DNA from: Thozetella sp. PMI_491
Lineage: Eukaryota > Ascomycota > Sordariomycetes > Chaetosphaeriales > Chaetosphaeriaceae
Assembly: GCA_021432635.1 (NCBI GenBank)
Contig: MU270038.1
Location: 620,001 to 684,000, forward strand
DNA: 64,000 bases
Direction: 5' to 3'
Below the pieces are notes generated by a model. The model was not told the DNA's origin, did no database searches, and saw nothing but the letters and a program-made list of their open reading frames with translations. Positions 9,932 through 62,265 of this stretch are shown one piece after another (the stretch's first letter is position 1; each line of letters starts with the position of its first letter). The position numbers and the translations under genes are program-made.

Positions 9932-12900
9932 ATGGGCCCCGAGGACCTCGGTATATGGCACACCACCACTCTTCAGTCCGTGGCCGAGCGTCATGAGGCG
10001 AGCTATAGGGATACAAACATTGCAGTAGGCCACAAGCGGACCTTCGATGAAGCCCAAAGCGATGAGCAGCCGGTCCCCCTTCAACCAACAACCACGAGAC
10101 GGCCGGGGCACTCTCGCCAGCCTTCAGACCTGCCAAAGCAGCGCTCCAAGCTCTCGGCAAGTGCAATAGTAGCCATTGGTGATGAATTGAAGGCGGGGCC
10201 GTCTCAGTATACACAGCGCAGGGCCTTTCCCGCTACGCCGAGTTCTACGGTTGACCCTTTGCTGAGCCTCCACCATCCCATCTACGACCTTTCCCCGCCG
10301 CTGGTAGCTAATTTTGCCTCCCTCGGAATCAAAGAGATATACCCCTGGCAGAAGCAATGTCTTCTCGGACAAGGGCTCCTTCAGGGTGAAAAAAATCTTG
10401 TCTATAGTGCTCCGACGGGGGGAGGCAAGTCTCTGGTCGCGGACGTTTTGATGCTGAAGCAAGTAATGGCGGGTCGAGACCGCAAGGCTCTCCTCGTTCT
10501 CCCCTACGTTGCTCTTGTCCAAGAAAAGGTGAGGTGGCTGCGCAACGTCGTCCAAGGGATTTCCCGTGAGGATCTCGGCCAGAGGGAGCCGGATGGGGGG
10601 AGGCTATGGGCCCCCCGGGCTGATAAAGACACCTTACGAGTCGTTGGCTTTTTCGGCGGCGGTAAGATCCGGGCTACCTGGGTGGACTTCGACATTGGGG
10701 TGTGTACTATGGAAAAGGTAGACCACATGTACGCTCGGAAGCTTCCAGCGGCTTCGCTAACGTATTGCAGGCCAACTCGCTTATTAACACAGCAATCGAC
10801 GACTGCTCAATCGCACAGCTGAAAGTGGTGGTTCTAGACGAACTTCACATGATCGACGATGACTATCGGGGTTATCTACTGGAGCTGATGACTACCAAGA
10901 TACTTTGCCTGGAGCAGCAAACGCAGATTATCGGCATGAGCGCGACGCTAAGTGTAATATTGCAGCTGCTTGTGCCTTCCGATGGTTGTGCTAACCACTA
11001 TTGAAGAATATCCAACTCCTCAAGACCTGGATGCGAGCTCACTCGTACGAGACGCTTTACCGCCCAATTCCCATCAAGGAACACCTTGTTTATGAGGGGA
11101 GGATATACGCCGCCGAGACGACAAGCCGGCTGTTGTCAACTGCGACGCATCTTGTCTCGAGCAGCGCACCTGAAGAAGCCAACGTCAACGCAGTCCGGAC
11201 CATCCAGGCCTCAGAACATAAAGAACTGGTCGATCCAGTGCTTAACGCCGTTGTTGCCCTTGCCAACGAGACGGCTCGAGCTGGTTTTGGTGCCCTCGTC
11301 TTTGCCAGGAGCCGTTCTGGGTGCGAGTCCGACGCGTTGCTCATTAGTAGGGTGTTGCCTTCATGGCATGAAATTGATCCTGCCGTACAAGATAAGAGGC
11401 TAGAACTGCTCGGAGAGCTTCGCGGCCTGGCCACTGGGCTTGACCCTGTCTTGGAGCAAACAATTCCCGCTGGCGTTGCATTCCACCGTGCGGTCTTAAC
11501 CCTGCTCCCACTGCGTTAGACATCGCCTTGTTACTAACCTTCTCAACAGATGTCTGTTTATCCTCCTAGTATTCAAGTATAAAAGCTGACAAGATCGGTG
11601 TAGGCTGGCCTCACAACTGAAGAGCGCGATCTAGTTGCCGACGCATATGACTCTGGCATCATCAAGGTTTGCGTAGCAACGTGCTCGCTTGCGGCTGGCA
11701 TCAACTGTGAGGATGGCTCCCGACATTCAATAGTAACCATGAGATTTAACGTTCGTTGTAGTGCCTGCAAGGCGTGTTATTTTACACAATGCTCGGATGG
11801 GCAAGGACATCGTTGGCCCCTCTATGCTGTGAGCTGTACCCGAGCATCGGTTTTATTTAAATCTCACACGTTCACATAGGCGCCAAATGCGAGGCCGGGC
11901 CGGGAGGAAGGGCAAGGACGAGATCGGGGAAACCTACTTGTGCTGTCCCCTGAACGACTTGGACGAAGTCATTGATCTTATGCATGCCGAATTACCACAG
12001 ATATCGAGCTGTCTTCTTTCCGACCGATGTCGAATCCAGCGGGCTTTGCTTGAGATCATTGCTATCAGGCTGGCCACCACCCGAGAGTCTCTGGATGACT
12101 ACATACAAAGGACAATGTTGTACCACTCTGCTTCTTTTGAATCAATAAATGAGAATGTCGAGTCGAGTCTCGAGGGCTTGCAAGCCATGGGCTTCATCAC
12201 CACTGATAATTACAGCAACTTTCAAGCCACTCAGCTAGGCAAGGCAATTGTGGCCTCGTCGCTCGACCCCGAAGACGGTCTCTTTCTCCACTCGGAGCTC
12301 CGGAATTCCCTGAAAGCATTTGTCATGGATGGCGAGATGCACGCCCTTTACAACTTCACGCCCGTGCACGACCTCGGGAGTGGTCCGATCAATTGGAAAG
12401 TATTCTGGAACGAGATGGAACAGCTCGACGAGAGTGACCTTCGAGTTATGCAGTTCCTAGGGCTGAAACCTACAGTTGTCAATAATATGTAGGACAGCCA
12501 AAGTGATGGTGGGGGACAAGGGCTGACGAGCACAGGCTTCACGGGAGTGCTTTCAAGGACACGACGCCAGAGCAGATCGAGAACGCACGGCGGTATCATC
12601 GATTCTACTATGCCCTGCAGCTACGGGACCTTTGTAACGAGGTTCCTGTGCATCTTGTTGCCAAGAAATACGACATGCCCAGGGGGAGTGTCCAGAACTT
12701 AGCCCAAACTTGCCAGGGATTCGCTGCCGGTATGGTCAGGTTCTGCGAACATATGGGATGGGGGTAATGATCAGCCTAATTTGTTCTTTCTTACTCCGTT
12801 TACGATCGACTGACGACCGGGTCGCAGGGTTATGGCAGCCGCTCTGGACCACCTTTCGGACAGGCTGCGAGCTGGAGCCAAGTCTGACCTCCTGGCTTTG

Positions 12901-13270
12901 GCCAAGATTGCATTCATCAAGAGCCGCACTGCGTAAGATCGGGTCTCGCCTGACGCGAGACATTATCAAACTGACAGCTAGCAGGCGCGTCTTCTGGGAT
13001 AATGGGTTCAAAAGCGTGGCGGCCGTCGCTAACGCGGACCCGCAAGAGTTGGTCCCCATCCTCATGCAGGCACAGCCAAGCAAGGTGCGAGTCGAGGGCA
13101 AACAGGAAGAGGTGTACAAGGAGAAACTTCTTGGCAAAGCGAAGATCATCACCGACTCGGCCAACAGAATCTGGCGTGAGTATATCTGGGGACTGTGGTC
13201 CATTCTTAAATACCATTGCTAACCCGTTGCCGCAGAGCTAGAAATGCAGCACGAGCTTGACGAAGAATGA
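9932..13270 (+). CDS. HELQ-like (Ski2-type) superfamily 2 DNA repair helicase
   Basis: Eleven exons: 9932-10717, 10771-10953, 11007-11487, 11550-11551, 11604-11706, 11762-11828, 11880-12488, 12536-12763, 12828-12932, 12985-13175 and 13236-13270, giving 929 residues in continuous frame. Motifs: Walker A SAPTGGGKS (about 159-167), DEXH box DELH (285-288), motif III SATL (319-322), FHHAGL (482-487), and motif VI QMRGRAGR (543-550). The C-terminal part has the winged-helix/ratchet and helix-hairpin region of HELQ and Pol theta helicase domains. There is no polymerase domain, so it resembles HELQ/Mus301 rather than full Pol theta. HELQ unwinds forked and D-loop DNA in crosslink and replication-fork repair; that role is inferred from the family. 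Introns are 47-64 nt with good CTAAC/CTGAC branch points. The fourth exon is only 2 nt, an unusual feature needed to restore FHHAGL. Confidence 0.87.
11550..11551 (+). other. Apparent 2-nt microexon (AT) between two adjacent introns
   Basis: Intron 11488-11549 (donor GTGCGG, branch ACTAAC, acceptor CAG) and intron 11552-11603 (donor GTCTGT, branch GCTGAC, acceptor TAG) leave only AT between them. Exon 3 ends in C, the microexon supplies AT for a CAT codon, and exon 5 opens with GCTGGCCTC. This gives F-H-H-A-G-L, the invariant motif of this helicase family. No single-intron join I tried keeps both the frame and the motif. Confidence 0.6.
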
Positions 13271-14604
13271 AGAAGGCTCGGGTCTTTTTAATCGCTTGAT
13301 CTGGCGGCCTGCAATGGTGGCCTTCGTGCCTGTCCTTCGTGTCCCCGACTGCTACAGCGACGTGCCACATGATGGGAGTGCTGACTGAGGCTACGGAACC
13401 ATGAGCGCCAAGATTGCGCGACATGCCGCCCCGGCAGGGACTACGCTTCCAGCAGTGTGCCATCACATCGCAGTACCGCATTCTGGGCTGCAGCATCGAA
13501 TCCTTTCGGCCCTCGCTAGTCAAGCCTGCTCTATTAAGAAATTCGGAGCTCATGAACCTGAGGGTCAGGAGGGTCGTATAGACGATCGGCTCTCGCGTGG
13601 GCAGCTCTGGCAGGTCCCGCGCGAAGGGCGGGTCGCCAGAGGAGGTGTCTAATGCATGCAACCCAGATTGCGAGCATGCAGTTGCCGCCATAGATGCATG
13701 CCATGGTGCCAACGATGCCCCCGACTGGCGAGTTCCCCTTGCGCTGTAGCGTAGAAATTGCGGGCTCACGCGCTTCACATATGCGTGCTCTCTAGAGCCA
13801 CCACCAAATATATGCAGCAGCCCTGCCGGAAAACGGAACCGTACAACCGTACCTTTCGCACCTCGATAGCCTCTCGTTCGCCGTGACCTCTCTTAGTGAC
13901 TGCCACTGTACCCCCCCCCCCCCCCGTTCCTCCTACGCCTGTCTTGGACCAGTCCCCCTCCTCACCCAGAAAGCCCGCGGTCGCAGCCACAAGCAGTAAA
14001 ATTTCAACAACGGAGACCAACCAACGGCCACCGCGCCCACACACATCTTAGAGGGCTGCAGAGTATAACCAGCTGCTATGGCATGGGAATGGATGCACAC
14101 CTCACATGCATGTCTGTCGCCAGCCCGGATGCGATTCGACAGCCGAGTTGGTGTGGCTGCCTGCTGTTTAACCACAGCCAGGCCACCAGACGCACCGAGG
14201 CCAATTCTGCCCCTCGCTTTCCTCAAGAGGGGCCCCTACTTTGTGCTATCAGAGTTGCTCGTCGGCCGCTTCCTCTCTTATTGCTTTTTTCCCCCTCGCC
14301 CCCCCCGTCCAACCTATCTGCCTACTGCCCAGTACGTAACCTGAGGCTTGCTGTTTGAAATGCGATAGGACTTGTCGGCTCTTGGCTTCCTTCCTTGCTC
14401 GAATTGGAGTGAACCGACTCTTTGCCTTTCGCAACCACTTTTCTAGTCTACTTCCTCGCCTTAGACTCTTGAGACCCTTGAGACCCTTGAGACCCTTGAG
14501 ACTCTTGATAAGCAGCGGTTGGCTGGTTGTCTCTCTGCTCACTTATCGGCATACTACCCTCAACGCCCCGACCCCACTCCCACAAGCACTGCTGCGGTGG
14601 GCGA
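13271..14604. other. Intergenic between the helicase and BTB genes
   Basis: It holds the helicase 3' end and the BTB upstream region. A minus-strand open frame of 190 codons (13206-13778) overlaps the last helicase exon and shows no domain or codon signature I trust. There is a run of 15 C at 13911-13925 and a short 9-bp repeat just upstream of the BTB start. Confidence 0.5.
14466..14506. repeat. Short tandem repeat, 9-bp unit ttgagaccc
   Basis: About four direct copies of ttgagaccc, the last one ending ctc, lie roughly 100-140 bp before the BTB start codon, probably in its 5' leader or promoter. Confidence 0.8.
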
Positions 14605-34706: not shown

Positions 34707-36351
34707 ATGGCTACCGATAAGGGACTCGAGGATGTGCCCGAGAGTGAGTAGCTTCCTGTCGCCCTGCTTTTACTCCCTGCCCTCTGCCGCCGCTGTGATT
34801 GCGATGCGATGCGACTTGAATGCGCCGCCGATCGGTGAAGGCGCCCGCGCTCCACCGTAGATGGCTCCTGCCTTGATCCGTTGCCCCTCACCACAGTCGC
34901 CCATGTCGAGCGCCTTTTGTTTCCACAGCATGCAGCTAACCATGGTACCAACGCAGGCCAGATCGAGTCCAACTACGATGAGACCGTTGACTCCTTCGAT
35001 GAGATGAACCTCAAGTCGGAGCTCCTTCGAGGTAGGAACTTGGCGCAATGCGGCCAACAGCCATAAATATGGATCAGGCTAACCCGGTCAAAGGCATCTA
35101 TGCCTACGGTTTCGAGCGCCCCTCTGCTATCCAGATGCGCGCCATCATGCCGGTCATTAAGGGTAAGTAGCCGAGACGGTATCCTCTAGCCTGGCGGCGC
35201 TTTCGCGAACTTGTGATTGATTTTTTTTAGGCCACGATGTCATTGCCCAGGCTCAGTCCGGAACTGGCAAGACTGCCACCTTCTCGATCTCCACTCTGCA
35301 GAAGATCGACCAGAACGTGAAGCAGTGCCAGGCTCTGATCCTCGCCCCGACCCGTGAGCTGGCTCAGCAGATCCAGAAGGTCGTTGTCGCCATTGGCGAC
35401 TTCATGAACATTGAGTGCCACGCCTGCATCGGCGGCACCAGCGTCCGTGATGACATGAAGGCCCTGCAGGACGGCCCCCAGGTGGTCGTCGGCACTCCTG
35501 GCCGTGTCCAGGACATGATTCAGCGCCGCTTCCTCAAGACCGACGCCATGAAGATGTTTGTCCTTGACGAGGCCGACGAAATGCTTTCGGTGAGTGATCA
35601 GCCCGCGCTTGCCCTGGATGGAGGCGCAAAAGATGGGCCTCCCTCCGCGGGTTAGCGATGGACCGGCAAGCAGGCAGCTAGCTAACAATCTCTGCAGCGT
35701 GGTTTCACCGAGCAGATCTACGACATCTTCCAGCTCCTGCCGCAGTCCACCCAGGTGGTTCTGCTCTCGGCCACCATGCCGCAGGACGTGCTCGAGGTCA
35801 CCACCAAGTTCATGCGCGACCCTGTCCGTATCCTGGTCAAGAAGGACGAGCTTACCCTGGAGGGTATCAAGCAGTTCTACATCGCTGTTGAGAAGGAGGA
35901 GTGGAAGCTGGATACCCTCTCTGACCTTTACGAGACGGTCACCATCACCCAGGCCGTCATTTTCTGCAACACGCGCAGAAAGGTTGACTGGCTCACCGAC
36001 AAGCTGACTGCCCGTGACTTTACTGTCTCGGCCATGCACGGTGACATGGACCAGGCCCAGCGTGACCTGATCATGAAGGAGTTCCGGTCCGGCTCGTCGC
36101 GTGTGCTGATCGCTACCGACCTCCTCGCCCGTGGTATCGATGTGCAGCAGGTCTCTCTCGTCATCAACTACGATCTTCCCGCTAACCGCGAGAACTACAT
36201 CCACCGCATCGGTCGTGGCGGTCGTTTCGGCCGAAAGGGTGTTGCGATCAACTTTGTGACCGCCGAGGACGTGCGTATGATGCGCGAAATCGAGCAGTTC
36301 TACAGCACGCAGATCGAGGAGATGCCCATGAACGTTGCCGACCTCATCTAA
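34707..36351 (+). CDS. tif1: Translation initiation factor eIF4A (DEAD-box RNA helicase)
   Basis: Five exons: 34707-34743, 34957-35031, 35094-35162, 35231-35589 and 35698-36351, 397 residues, the standard eIF4A length. Motifs in order: Q-motif region GFERPSAIQ, motif I AQSGTGKT, Ia PTRELAQQ, Ib [49 protein letters not shown], ending in the usual DLI. It is the ATP-dependent helicase of the eIF4F cap-binding complex in the cytoplasm, unwinding mRNA leaders for ribosome scanning. The first intron (213 nt) is the longest in the gene, a common pattern in highly expressed fungal genes. Codon use is strongly biased. Confidence 0.98.
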
Positions 36352-37313
36352 GGCTCTGCACAACGGCCGGACCTGATTTCACTCCTTTTCTCTCAGTACT
36401 CATCCGCACGACGTCATATCCGAATTTCATCACGAGCAGGGCATCTTGTTGGAAGGTCTTCTGATAGAGGGAGAGCAGCTGCCGGCGCCGGAATCCGGGG
36501 GAGTGCAGCATCTGAGGCGTGTCTCGGAACAAAAGTGCCTGGCTTTTTTCGCAACAAGGGGATCTGATTTTTTTTGCTCTTGCACTCTGCACCTTTAATC
36601 GCTGGAGGGTGCACGGTGCTTTCACGGAGGAAAGGCCGAATCTCGGCCTGCTTTCCTCGCCTTTTTCTTAATCGTCTGTAACCAGGATGCTTTCCTTAGT
36701 TAGCATTAGGTCTCAGAAACGCGGATTAGACGAAAATCCCTATCCTGACTTTTATCATTTGTGCTGCCTGTCTTGCTTGGTGCGGAAAGTATGCCTTTCA
36801 CGGCCCGACTGGACGTCCCATGGGGCAGATCGGGTTGCTCCGACCCGCCCAGTGTAAACCCCCAGTTCCATAGAGTAACATAGCAGCATTTGCCTTTCGG
36901 CATGTCCCTAGCATGCAGCTCCCAAACTCCCGGATCCTGGATGCTTGCAGCTCTCCCTTGGCAAGCTTGGATGGGATGGAGCCTGAGCATGAGCATGGGC
37001 ATGGGCATGAGCATGAGCAGGAGGAGGAGTAGCCGCAGCCCGCCCACCAGCAGCTGCCGGCCCACGGTGCTTGGCCGTGGTGCCTGCCCCTGCCGCTGGC
37101 CCACTAGCCCCCTGCGTCGTCGGCTCCGTAGAAACCCACACGAGGCTGGGCGCGGCACGGCTTTCCCCAAGCCGCATTTCTTGACCCTGGCTGGCTTGTC
37201 TGTGTCGTCAAGGCTACCTCCTTCGACCTGAAATCTTTTTTGGGGCTACCCGACTTCAACCCTCCCGCACCAGTTTACAGTCGCCAGCTCCGATTCTTTG
37301 TTCCCGAGACAAG
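36352..37313. other. Intergenic between eIF4A and Yra1
   Basis: Contains the eIF4A 3' untranslated region and the Yra1 promoter. A hexamer tract lies at 36984-37020. No coding frame supported. Confidence 0.6.
36984..37020. repeat. Hexanucleotide repeat (gagcat/gggcat)
   Basis: About six tandem copies of a 6-bp unit alternating gagcat and gggcat, in the region upstream of the Yra1 gene. It produces Met/His/Gly-rich pseudo-peptides in overlapping frames but no gene. Confidence 0.85.
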
Positions 37314-38899
37314 ATGAGTTCCTCCCTGGATCGCAGTCTCGATGAAATTCTCGCCGATCGCGAGCAGGTATGCTTGTCTTCTCACCTCCTCCAAATTTGG
37401 TTCTTGGGCCCGCTGACACCAGAGCTTCAGGGCAAGAGAAACCCGCGCAACAACAACAACAATAACAACAACAACGGCGGCAGCAATAGCAACAACAACC
37501 GGAGGGACGGGGGTCGACGGCGCGAGAGACATGATTATCCTCGAGATGGCGTAAGAAAGGTATGCACGCGTGTCCTCACTCCCATCTACTGCTATGTTTG
37601 CATTACCGAACTACCCATGGCTGACGGCTCTCCATCTCAGGTTGAAACCTCTCCTCTTCTTCCCCCCTAAGGCCGCCCTTCTTCGGTTCCCCCTCGAGTT
37701 CTCGACGCAGCCATTTTCCCCCGCGACTTGACTTGCTCGATGCCTCGGACCGCGACCGAGGAAGGTAGCCTGCGTTTGGAACCTCCAGCTAACTACGCCC
37801 GTCTCATTGGGCGAGACAGTCATTCAGAGACGATGCGCCACGCAACCTGGACTCGTACGTGCCCGACCGCAAAAGAGTGTCTCTATCCTCTGGGGCGAAC
37901 GGAAGCTGATGCATCATTGCAGCGAATGGGTCCATGACAGGTTCGAAGACAGCGGTAAGGCGCAATGGCGGCCCAGACGGCTTTGAGACGCTCTAACAAG
38001 TTTATGCAGGTAACCGTCGCTCTGTCGCGCGCCGCCGCCACTCTCCAGAGCTCAGCGGCTCAGCCGGTGCCAAGATCCGGGTTGACAACATCCACTACGA
38101 CCTGACGCAGGAGGATCTGGAGGTACGTTGGTAGCATACCAGCCGGAATGCTTCCAGTCGCTAATTGGCTTCGTCAGGGCCTTTTTTCCAAGATTGGGCC
38201 GATAATCAAGCTGGAGCTTCAGTATGACCGCGCTGGACGCTCTGAAGGCACCGCCTACGTCACATATGAATCCGCACAGGATGCGAACGCCGCCATTCGG
38301 GAATACGACGGCGCGAATGCCAACGGTACGGTGCTGCAAGCAGAGCCCACTTAGGGCAAGATGGACACTTCTAACACTCGGCAGGCCAGCCGATCCGGCT
38401 CACCTCGATGCCCAGCGGGCCGAGCACCAGGCGCAATCCCTTCGACTCGGCAGTGATGCCTGGTCGCCCGCTAGCCGAGCGCATCACCGTTCCTGGGGCA
38501 CGATCGCGGTCCCGTTCGCCCCGGCGGCGGCACGATCTGGACGACGAAGAAGCGGCCCGTAGGGGGGTGGATCGGTATAGACCCAGCGGAAAGTCGCGTA
38601 GCCCTATGCCTAGGGGGCGACGGGAAGGAGGGCGTCGGCCCGGCGCGCGCCGTGAAGGTGGCGGCGCCGGCGGTGCGGGCGGTGCGGGCGGTGCAGGCGG
38701 CAAGTCCGGCGGCGAGAAGGGCCGAGGCGGCCGGGAGGGTCGTCCGAAGAAGACCCAGGAGGAGCTTGATGCCGAGATGGCGGACTACTTTGGCGGCGGA
38801 GGCGAAGCGCAGAACGGGAGTGGTGCCGCGTCTGGGAACAACGGCGCTGCCCCGGCCGCGTCCGGCGCGCCCGAGGAGGATATCGACATGATCGAGTAG
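37314..38899 (+). CDS. yra1: Yra1/ALY/REF mRNA export adaptor (RRM protein)
   Basis: Seven exons: 37314-37367, 37431-37559, 37820-37854, 37923-37954, 38010-38122, 38178-38325 and 38385-38899, 341 residues with continuous phase. The N-terminus SLDEILADRE is the conserved REF N-box. An Asn-run and Arg-rich segment follow, then one RRM about 130-205 (KIRVDNIHYDLT and GTAYVTYES). After it come an Arg/Ser region, a Gly/Ala-rich repeat and a C-terminal FoP-type motif KTQEELDAEMADYF. This is the layout of Yra1 (budding yeast), Mlo3 (fission yeast) and ALYREF. These are nuclear adaptors that link TREX and the Mex67 receptor to mRNA. Intron 2 (260 nt) is far longer than the others. Confidence 0.92.
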
Positions 38900-58694: not shown

Positions 58695-59381
58695 CTTGTC
58701 GGTGGTTTGGCGCGCATCAACTTGTCGTCGTCGTTGATTGTCGGGCACGAAACCAACAGCGGCCCGGCAGATGGGCAAAATATTATGGGTCGGTCGCTGG
58801 GGCAACCGAAACAGACCCACAACTGTGCGTCTCCACTTCTTCTCGCTAGGCCATGTTTCCAGCCCTGGTCTGTTCCACCCTTGCTCTTCTACCCCGCCAC
58901 TACGTCAGGGTCAGGTCGCGCCATAGGGCTCGGGATGCGCCGCTGGCTCGACCCTCCGGGCTACCGGGTGCGCTACGTCTACGTACAATCGCTCGCGTAC
59001 AATGCCTTTGATGACACAATGCCGGGATGCAAGGTCAGCTCGCTCACGGCGGGTCTGCCAGCTGCTAGCTGCTTATGCTCGCGTAGGAAGGGCGAACATA
59101 TATAAAAGGCAGGAAAGCGACCGGAGCCTTCGGGCAGGATCGAAGGCTACGGGGGCCGGGCACGAATGGGGAAGCACAAGTCTCGGGCACAGTGGCAAGC
59201 TGCATTTTCATTCTTGGTATCCCTATGTTTCCGGGCTCTAATCATGTCCCGGTGCCATTTTCTGTATTCCATAGCGCGGTCATTATCTTCATCCGAGGTC
59301 CAAACAATGTGCTAGCTGGTAAAGGTTGCCCATGGCTTCCGGATCGATCCGAGTGGGGCCACGGCTCTACGTAAAGAGACC
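58695..59381. other. Intergenic between enolase and bub1
   Basis: Both flanking genes are on the minus strand, so this is the bub1 promoter and the enolase 3' flank. Nothing else seen. Confidence 0.6.

Positions 59382-62265
<2,884 letters not shown>

Follow-up and report, generated by a model that had tools for sequence, protein, structure and literature searches.

How is the coding sequence joined where two introns of a helicase gene leave only the dinucleotide AT between them? The gene lies in a 64-kb window (positions 620001-684000 of contig C24), which is the whole stretch of DNA analysed here. The first-pass annotation had proposed two introns with AT between them. Their coordinates (Table 1) are exact, and the branch points and acceptors that had been described as good are confirmed. 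We infer from the DNA that AT is very probably a constitutive two-nucleotide coding exon, flanked by two ordinary short introns of the U2 type.

Table 1. Positions within the window of the helicase gene and of the predicted exons and introns around the AT exon
Feature	Position	Strand	Details
POLQ-like (Ski2-type SF2) helicase gene	9932..13270	+	11 exons, 929 aa; open join, PDB and Pfam matches
Upstream exon	11007..11487	+	ends GTT GCA TTC CAC C (VAFH and first base of His484)
Upstream intron, 62 nt, phase 1	11488..11549	+	weak donor GTGCGG, branch CTAAC, acceptor CAG
Two-nucleotide exon AT	11550..11551	+	bases 2 and 3 of the His484 codon in FHHAGL
Downstream intron, 52 nt, phase 0	11552..11603	+	weak donor GTCTGT, branch CTGAC, acceptor TAG
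Downstream exon	11604..11706	+	starts GCT GGC CTC ACA (AGLT)

The joined reading of the gene is open throughout its 929 codons (930 counting the stop codon). The consistency over 929 codons claimed earlier stands, and the accompanying count of nine other joins has to be corrected, since the gene has ten introns and hence eight besides the two next to AT. The predicted introns are, from 5' to 3', 53, 53, 62, 52, 55, 51, 47, 64, 52, and 60 nt long, and introns 3 and 4 border the AT exon. The lengths of both fall inside the 47-64 nt span of the other eight. Searched against the 72.3-Mb genome (157 contigs), a 341-base DNA query around the AT exon finds no match besides itself.

The top PDB match of the protein is the helicase domain of human POLQ (E 1.9e-114), and residues 119-899 align with the helicase region of human DNA polymerase theta. 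The POLQ match scores 387 bits, as against 193 bits for archaeal Hel308. The Pfam matches include POLQ_helical (217 bits), DUF7898, HTH_61, DEAD, Helicase_C, and ResIII, together with an archaeal helicase domain that scores under its cut-off, and none of the seven matches is a polymerase domain family. The protein thus matches the POLQ helicase region in full, has POLQ_helical, and shows no polymerase domain. POLQ-like helicases without a polymerase are described from many Pezizomycotina, and that of Hypoxylon is called HelQ (PMC8469720). The gene had been labelled HELQ-like, which is imprecise: the best PDB match is human POLQ, and POLQ_helical is present. The best 60 of 66 PDB matches include no HELQ structure, so that the structures compared are those of POLQ and Hel308. 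Because proteins of this kind are published as POLQ-like helicases without polymerase, POLQ-like is the better name.

The upstream intron has the sequence gtgcgg...tactaaccttctcaacag, and the downstream intron gtctgt...agctgacaagatcggtgtag. The branch-point adenosines of CTAAC and CTGAC are 12 and 14 nt, respectively, before the ends of their introns. When AT is included, the predicted spliced product reads TTC CAC C+AT+GCT GGC, which keeps the frame and encodes FHHAGL. A read across this join is expected to be TTCCACCATGCTGGC, and other joins would give reads such as CACCGTGCTGG and CACCGCTGG. The histidine completed by AT belongs to the core of the enzyme and sits in the segment GVAFHHAGLT, which is identical in human POLQ. 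If AGL is to stay in frame, the acceptor must be at 11603, because an in-frame TAG occupies 11601-11603 just before GCT. All structures with one or two introns of at least 40 nt were enumerated locally, using GT or GC donors from 11440 and AG acceptors up to 11640. There are 109 in-frame open solutions (18 with a single intron and 91 with two), and HHAGL is kept in one of them, that with the AT exon. This bears out the earlier claim that AT restores both the reading frame and the FHHAGL motif. AT has the properties of an ultra-short coding microexon: AG and GT flank it, both neighbours are complete introns with a branch point, and it is required for the frame and the conserved motif, which simpler solutions lose.

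The second histidine of the motif is strongly conserved among related helicases. It is present in 8/8 paralogous places of the same genome, two of them close together on contig C29; the search had returned 12 loci, of which four are the helicase gene itself and were set aside. Among prokaryotic SF2 helicases it is found in all 31 aligned loci, two of which (L030 and L031) represent one gene, whereas L032, the thirty-second, did not align. Matches were obtained in 81 of 100 prokaryotic genomes, and the best 30 loci were looked at. Both sets were chosen by likeness to a query that contains the two histidines, which biases the comparison mildly. A search of contig collections for orthologues of the AT site gave two loci in all, a bacterial helicase (L030) and a viral contig (L074). 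One of the paralogous helicases (L037) is Mtr4-like, its best PDB match being the FRQ-interacting RNA helicase with 1690 bits, and the next molecule DOB1 with 1157. The FRQ-interacting RNA helicase chain is presumably from Neurospora, and the match is in keeping with a Neurospora-like ascomycete as the source; the structure of the gene likewise suggests a fungus.

The conserved histidine bears on the single-intron structures. The one that changes the motif least is a GC-AG intron of 114 nt (11490-11603), which has no stop codons, keeps the frame, and replaces one residue to give FHRAGL. It is nevertheless very unlikely to be used, as it would put arginine at a place where all the compared helicases have histidine. 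Its donor, CGT|GCGGTC, scores -7.8 without its first two bases, which is under all 115 introns of other genes, and the structure is outside the top 12 of 155 local structures ranked by signals and coding score. Even less probable is a GT-AG intron with a shifted end, the best of which (11488-11622) ranks second of the 155, 3.5 bits behind the structure with the AT exon. This intron would place Q where HAGLTTEE stands, and so break the motif and drop residues that are aligned without gaps with human POLQ; at 135 nt, it also exceeds the lengths of the gene's other eight introns. An error in the assembly is about as improbable as the GC-AG intron. Two exonic bases would have been lost next to a single 116-nt intron and the arrangement AG|AT|GT would be a coincidence, but the loss would have to fall precisely at the exon edge, and the sole homopolymer of four or more bases in 11480-11610 is AAAA at 11581. 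The coincidence was assessed with 20000 shuffles of the interior of the 116 nt, in which dinucleotides were kept and the first and last six bases were fixed. In this test, which was devised once the exon was already known and whose branch-point model contained the helicase gene, 234/20000 shuffles contained AG|AY|GT flanked by two introns of 44 nt or more, and the observed score of the AT structure was reached in 0/20000.

In the unspliced DNA, CGT GCG within 11487-11493 encodes Arg-Ala, and a translated search crosses the donor as FHRA, a mimic by which annotation could be misled. Automatic annotation may well break the helicase or select the false FHRAGL intron.

The two-nucleotide exon is also recovered when protein homology is not used. 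A homology-free gene finder, for which 264 kb of contig C24 served as training sequence, chose exon 11550-11551 exactly, with final signal models that had taken in the helicase gene's own introns (10 of 125). Open frames of 350 codons or more supplied its coding model; the longest of the helicase gene has 313. The gene finder departs from the present model at two introns: the first, with a donor at 10700 instead of 10718, and the one near 12760, placed at 12730-12838 instead of 12764-12827. At both, the alignment with human POLQ favours the present model. Of the 125 predicted introns, 27 are at least 84 nt long. For rescoring, the donor and acceptor models were built from 98 introns of other genes, omitting introns above 120 nt and an artefact gene. 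With these held-out models and a branch-point model that still contained the helicase gene, the AT structure heads the 155 local structures by 3.5 bits, before the protein is considered.

The two donors next to AT are weak and rank at the 3rd percentile among the 98 held-out predicted introns, a set picked with a donor model and therefore biased towards strong donors. The donors at 10718, 10954, 12489, and 12764 likewise rank at or below 4% in this set. All ten donors of the gene (introns within 10718-13235) lie in its lower 28%. Either donor weakness is characteristic of the helicase gene in general, or it reflects the bias of the reference set to strong sites.

Exons of two nucleotides account for two of the 69 internal exons in the 264-kb prediction, the AT exon and one artefact. 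The latter (C24:605432-605433) was rejected, as it makes one gene out of a neighbour and the end of a MutS/MSH1-like gene, through introns of 183 and 385 nt. The MutS/MSH1-like gene that gave rise to it (L018, C24:602069-606980) was named by eye. In the window itself, an RNA-binding gene at 37314-38899 (+), of the RRM type by eye, has seven predicted exons, two of which are just 35 and 32 nt long. A 9-base unit like TTGAGACCC occurs in tandem copies at about 14468-14500, upstream of the next predicted gene. Two gene calls of the finder are probably spurious, namely the long open frames at 35227-36511 (-), antisense to an eIF4A-like gene, and at 58935-60260 (+), antisense to an enolase-like gene (both neighbours named by eye).

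It had also been asked whether the arrangement is a form of stwintron, where one intron sits inside a splice element of another and excision leaves no exon. According to PMC8469720 and PMC9024468, a [D1,2] stwintron is present in the orthologous gene of Hypoxylaceae; the latter paper describes that of Hypoxylon HelQ as being of unique occurrence. At the AT site, however, this reading is the least probable of those considered. None of 522 nested parses (GT donors and AG acceptors, about 11430-11640) gives HHAGL; they contain 200 distinct open in-frame combinations, which encode ten proteins, all without HHAGL. The splice elements are whole, as each intron has a complete donor, branch point, and acceptor of its own, and AT is needed for HHAGL. 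Nor is the site a recursive splice site with an exon of zero length, since it has the form AG|AT|GT instead of a juxtaposed AG|GT.

It is conceivable, if rather unlikely, that the AT exon and the Hypoxylaceae stwintron represent alternative states of a single ancestral complex intron, located at one position of the gene, with the intron pair sliding between an overlap and a tiny gap. Should the junction be the same, the two states would differ by three bases in where the second donor stands with respect to the first acceptor, an overlap of one base as against a gap of two. In that case, a complex intron of a class whose reshaping is ascribed to microhomology-mediated end joining would reside in the gene of a repair helicase that is itself of the end-joining type.

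With AT as an exon, the introns on its two sides would be removed by intron definition, one and then the other. In filamentous ascomycetes, the pairing of splice sites is held to take place over the intron (PMC6616335). For the second donor, base -3 is the G that closes the first intron, so that this donor overlaps the first acceptor. Simultaneous use of the two sites is therefore unlikely, and sequential removal is likely on these steric grounds. Removal of the first intron turns the context of the second donor from GAT into CAT and raises its score by about 0.7 bit, too small a gain to fix the order of removal. For a plant gene with a 9-nt exon, removal starts with the second intron (cited in PMC4674806).

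Four mis-spliced forms were built. Skipping of AT leads to a stop after 488 aa, retention of the second intron to a stop after 489 aa, and retention of the first intron or of both to a stop after 493 aa; all four lose the later helicase motifs. We infer that the RNA is spliced with AT and that, as every failure built yields an early stop, its inclusion would be constitutive. The earlier question of whether skipping or retention regulates the helicase finds no positive evidence in these forms; since none of them is a productive isoform, regulation through them could be of the on/off kind alone.

The exon probably originated either when a new intron was gained two bases from the end of an existing one, or when a cryptic AT exon rescued a small loss at an exon edge, as has been proposed for the 1-nt exon of Fusarium (PMC12940212). 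Duplication of an intron was rejected as the origin, because 1723 of 2000 shuffles score as high as the likeness between the two introns. Spread of the introner type was likewise rejected: a genome search with a cut-off of E = 10, which skips simple repeats and very common words, gave no further match to either intron.

Ultra-short exons are a kind already known, to which the AT exon would add. Exons of 2-5 bp in Arabidopsis, Drosophila, and humans are mentioned, with reference to other work, in PMC12940212, and 1-nt exons are described in Arabidopsis APC11 and plant VPS55 (PMC4674806, PMC8831610). We found no published example of a natural fungal 2-nt exon in the open-access literature searched. 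If transcripts confirm it, the AT exon will add a natural 2-nt case to the few exons below 3 nt that we found published, and the helicase will be a second fungal gene with one, after that of PMC12940212. The intron pair offers a test of how, with intron definition, splicing handles sites two bases apart, and of whether a stwintron can turn into a microexon or the reverse.

As in APC11 and VPS55, the exon restores the frame and is shorter than one codon (PMC4674806, PMC8831610). Within a 422-nt stretch of this plant gene, the APC11 exon is located at 333 nt, so that one flanking intron is far longer than the other, in contrast to 62 and 52 nt here (PMC4674806). When the APC11 exon was engineered to TT, it was correctly spliced in Arabidopsis and mis-spliced in rice protoplasts (PMC4674806); the result in Arabidopsis indicates that 2-nt exons can work. 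Tiny exons are also described in lipS of Dactylellina haptotyla, like the present species a filamentous ascomycete, but they are 3 nt long and belong to another gene (PMC5639578). Ratchet points of recursive splicing, for example in Drosophila, resemble the AT site in their nearly abutting acceptor and donor and in stepwise removal, as proposed here; they differ in that their acceptor and donor directly adjoin each other and lie in long introns, whereas here two bases lie between them and are retained (PMC8605326). The HelQ stwintron of Hypoxylon sp. CO27-5, the cDNA of which is MW530496, belongs to an orthologous kind of gene and is likewise removed in two successive U2 reactions, but, as reported, its internal intron splits the donor of the external one with a one-base overlap and leaves no exon, in place of the two-base gap found here (PMC8469720, PMC9024468). 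A close parallel in exon form is Fusarium CYP621A, published in February 2026 with RNA reads and self-described as the first fungal case of a 1-nt exon, which most gene models had missed (PMC12940212). There too, an ultra-short exon of a filamentous fungus interrupts what could pass for a single long intron, and the exon is needed for the frame and completes a codon of a conserved motif, PKG in that protein (PMC12940212). The CYP621A exon is 1 nt long and was documented by at least 20 aligned orthologues and 18 RNA reads (PMC12940212), whereas the AT exon is 2 nt long and is predicted from the sequence of one genome.
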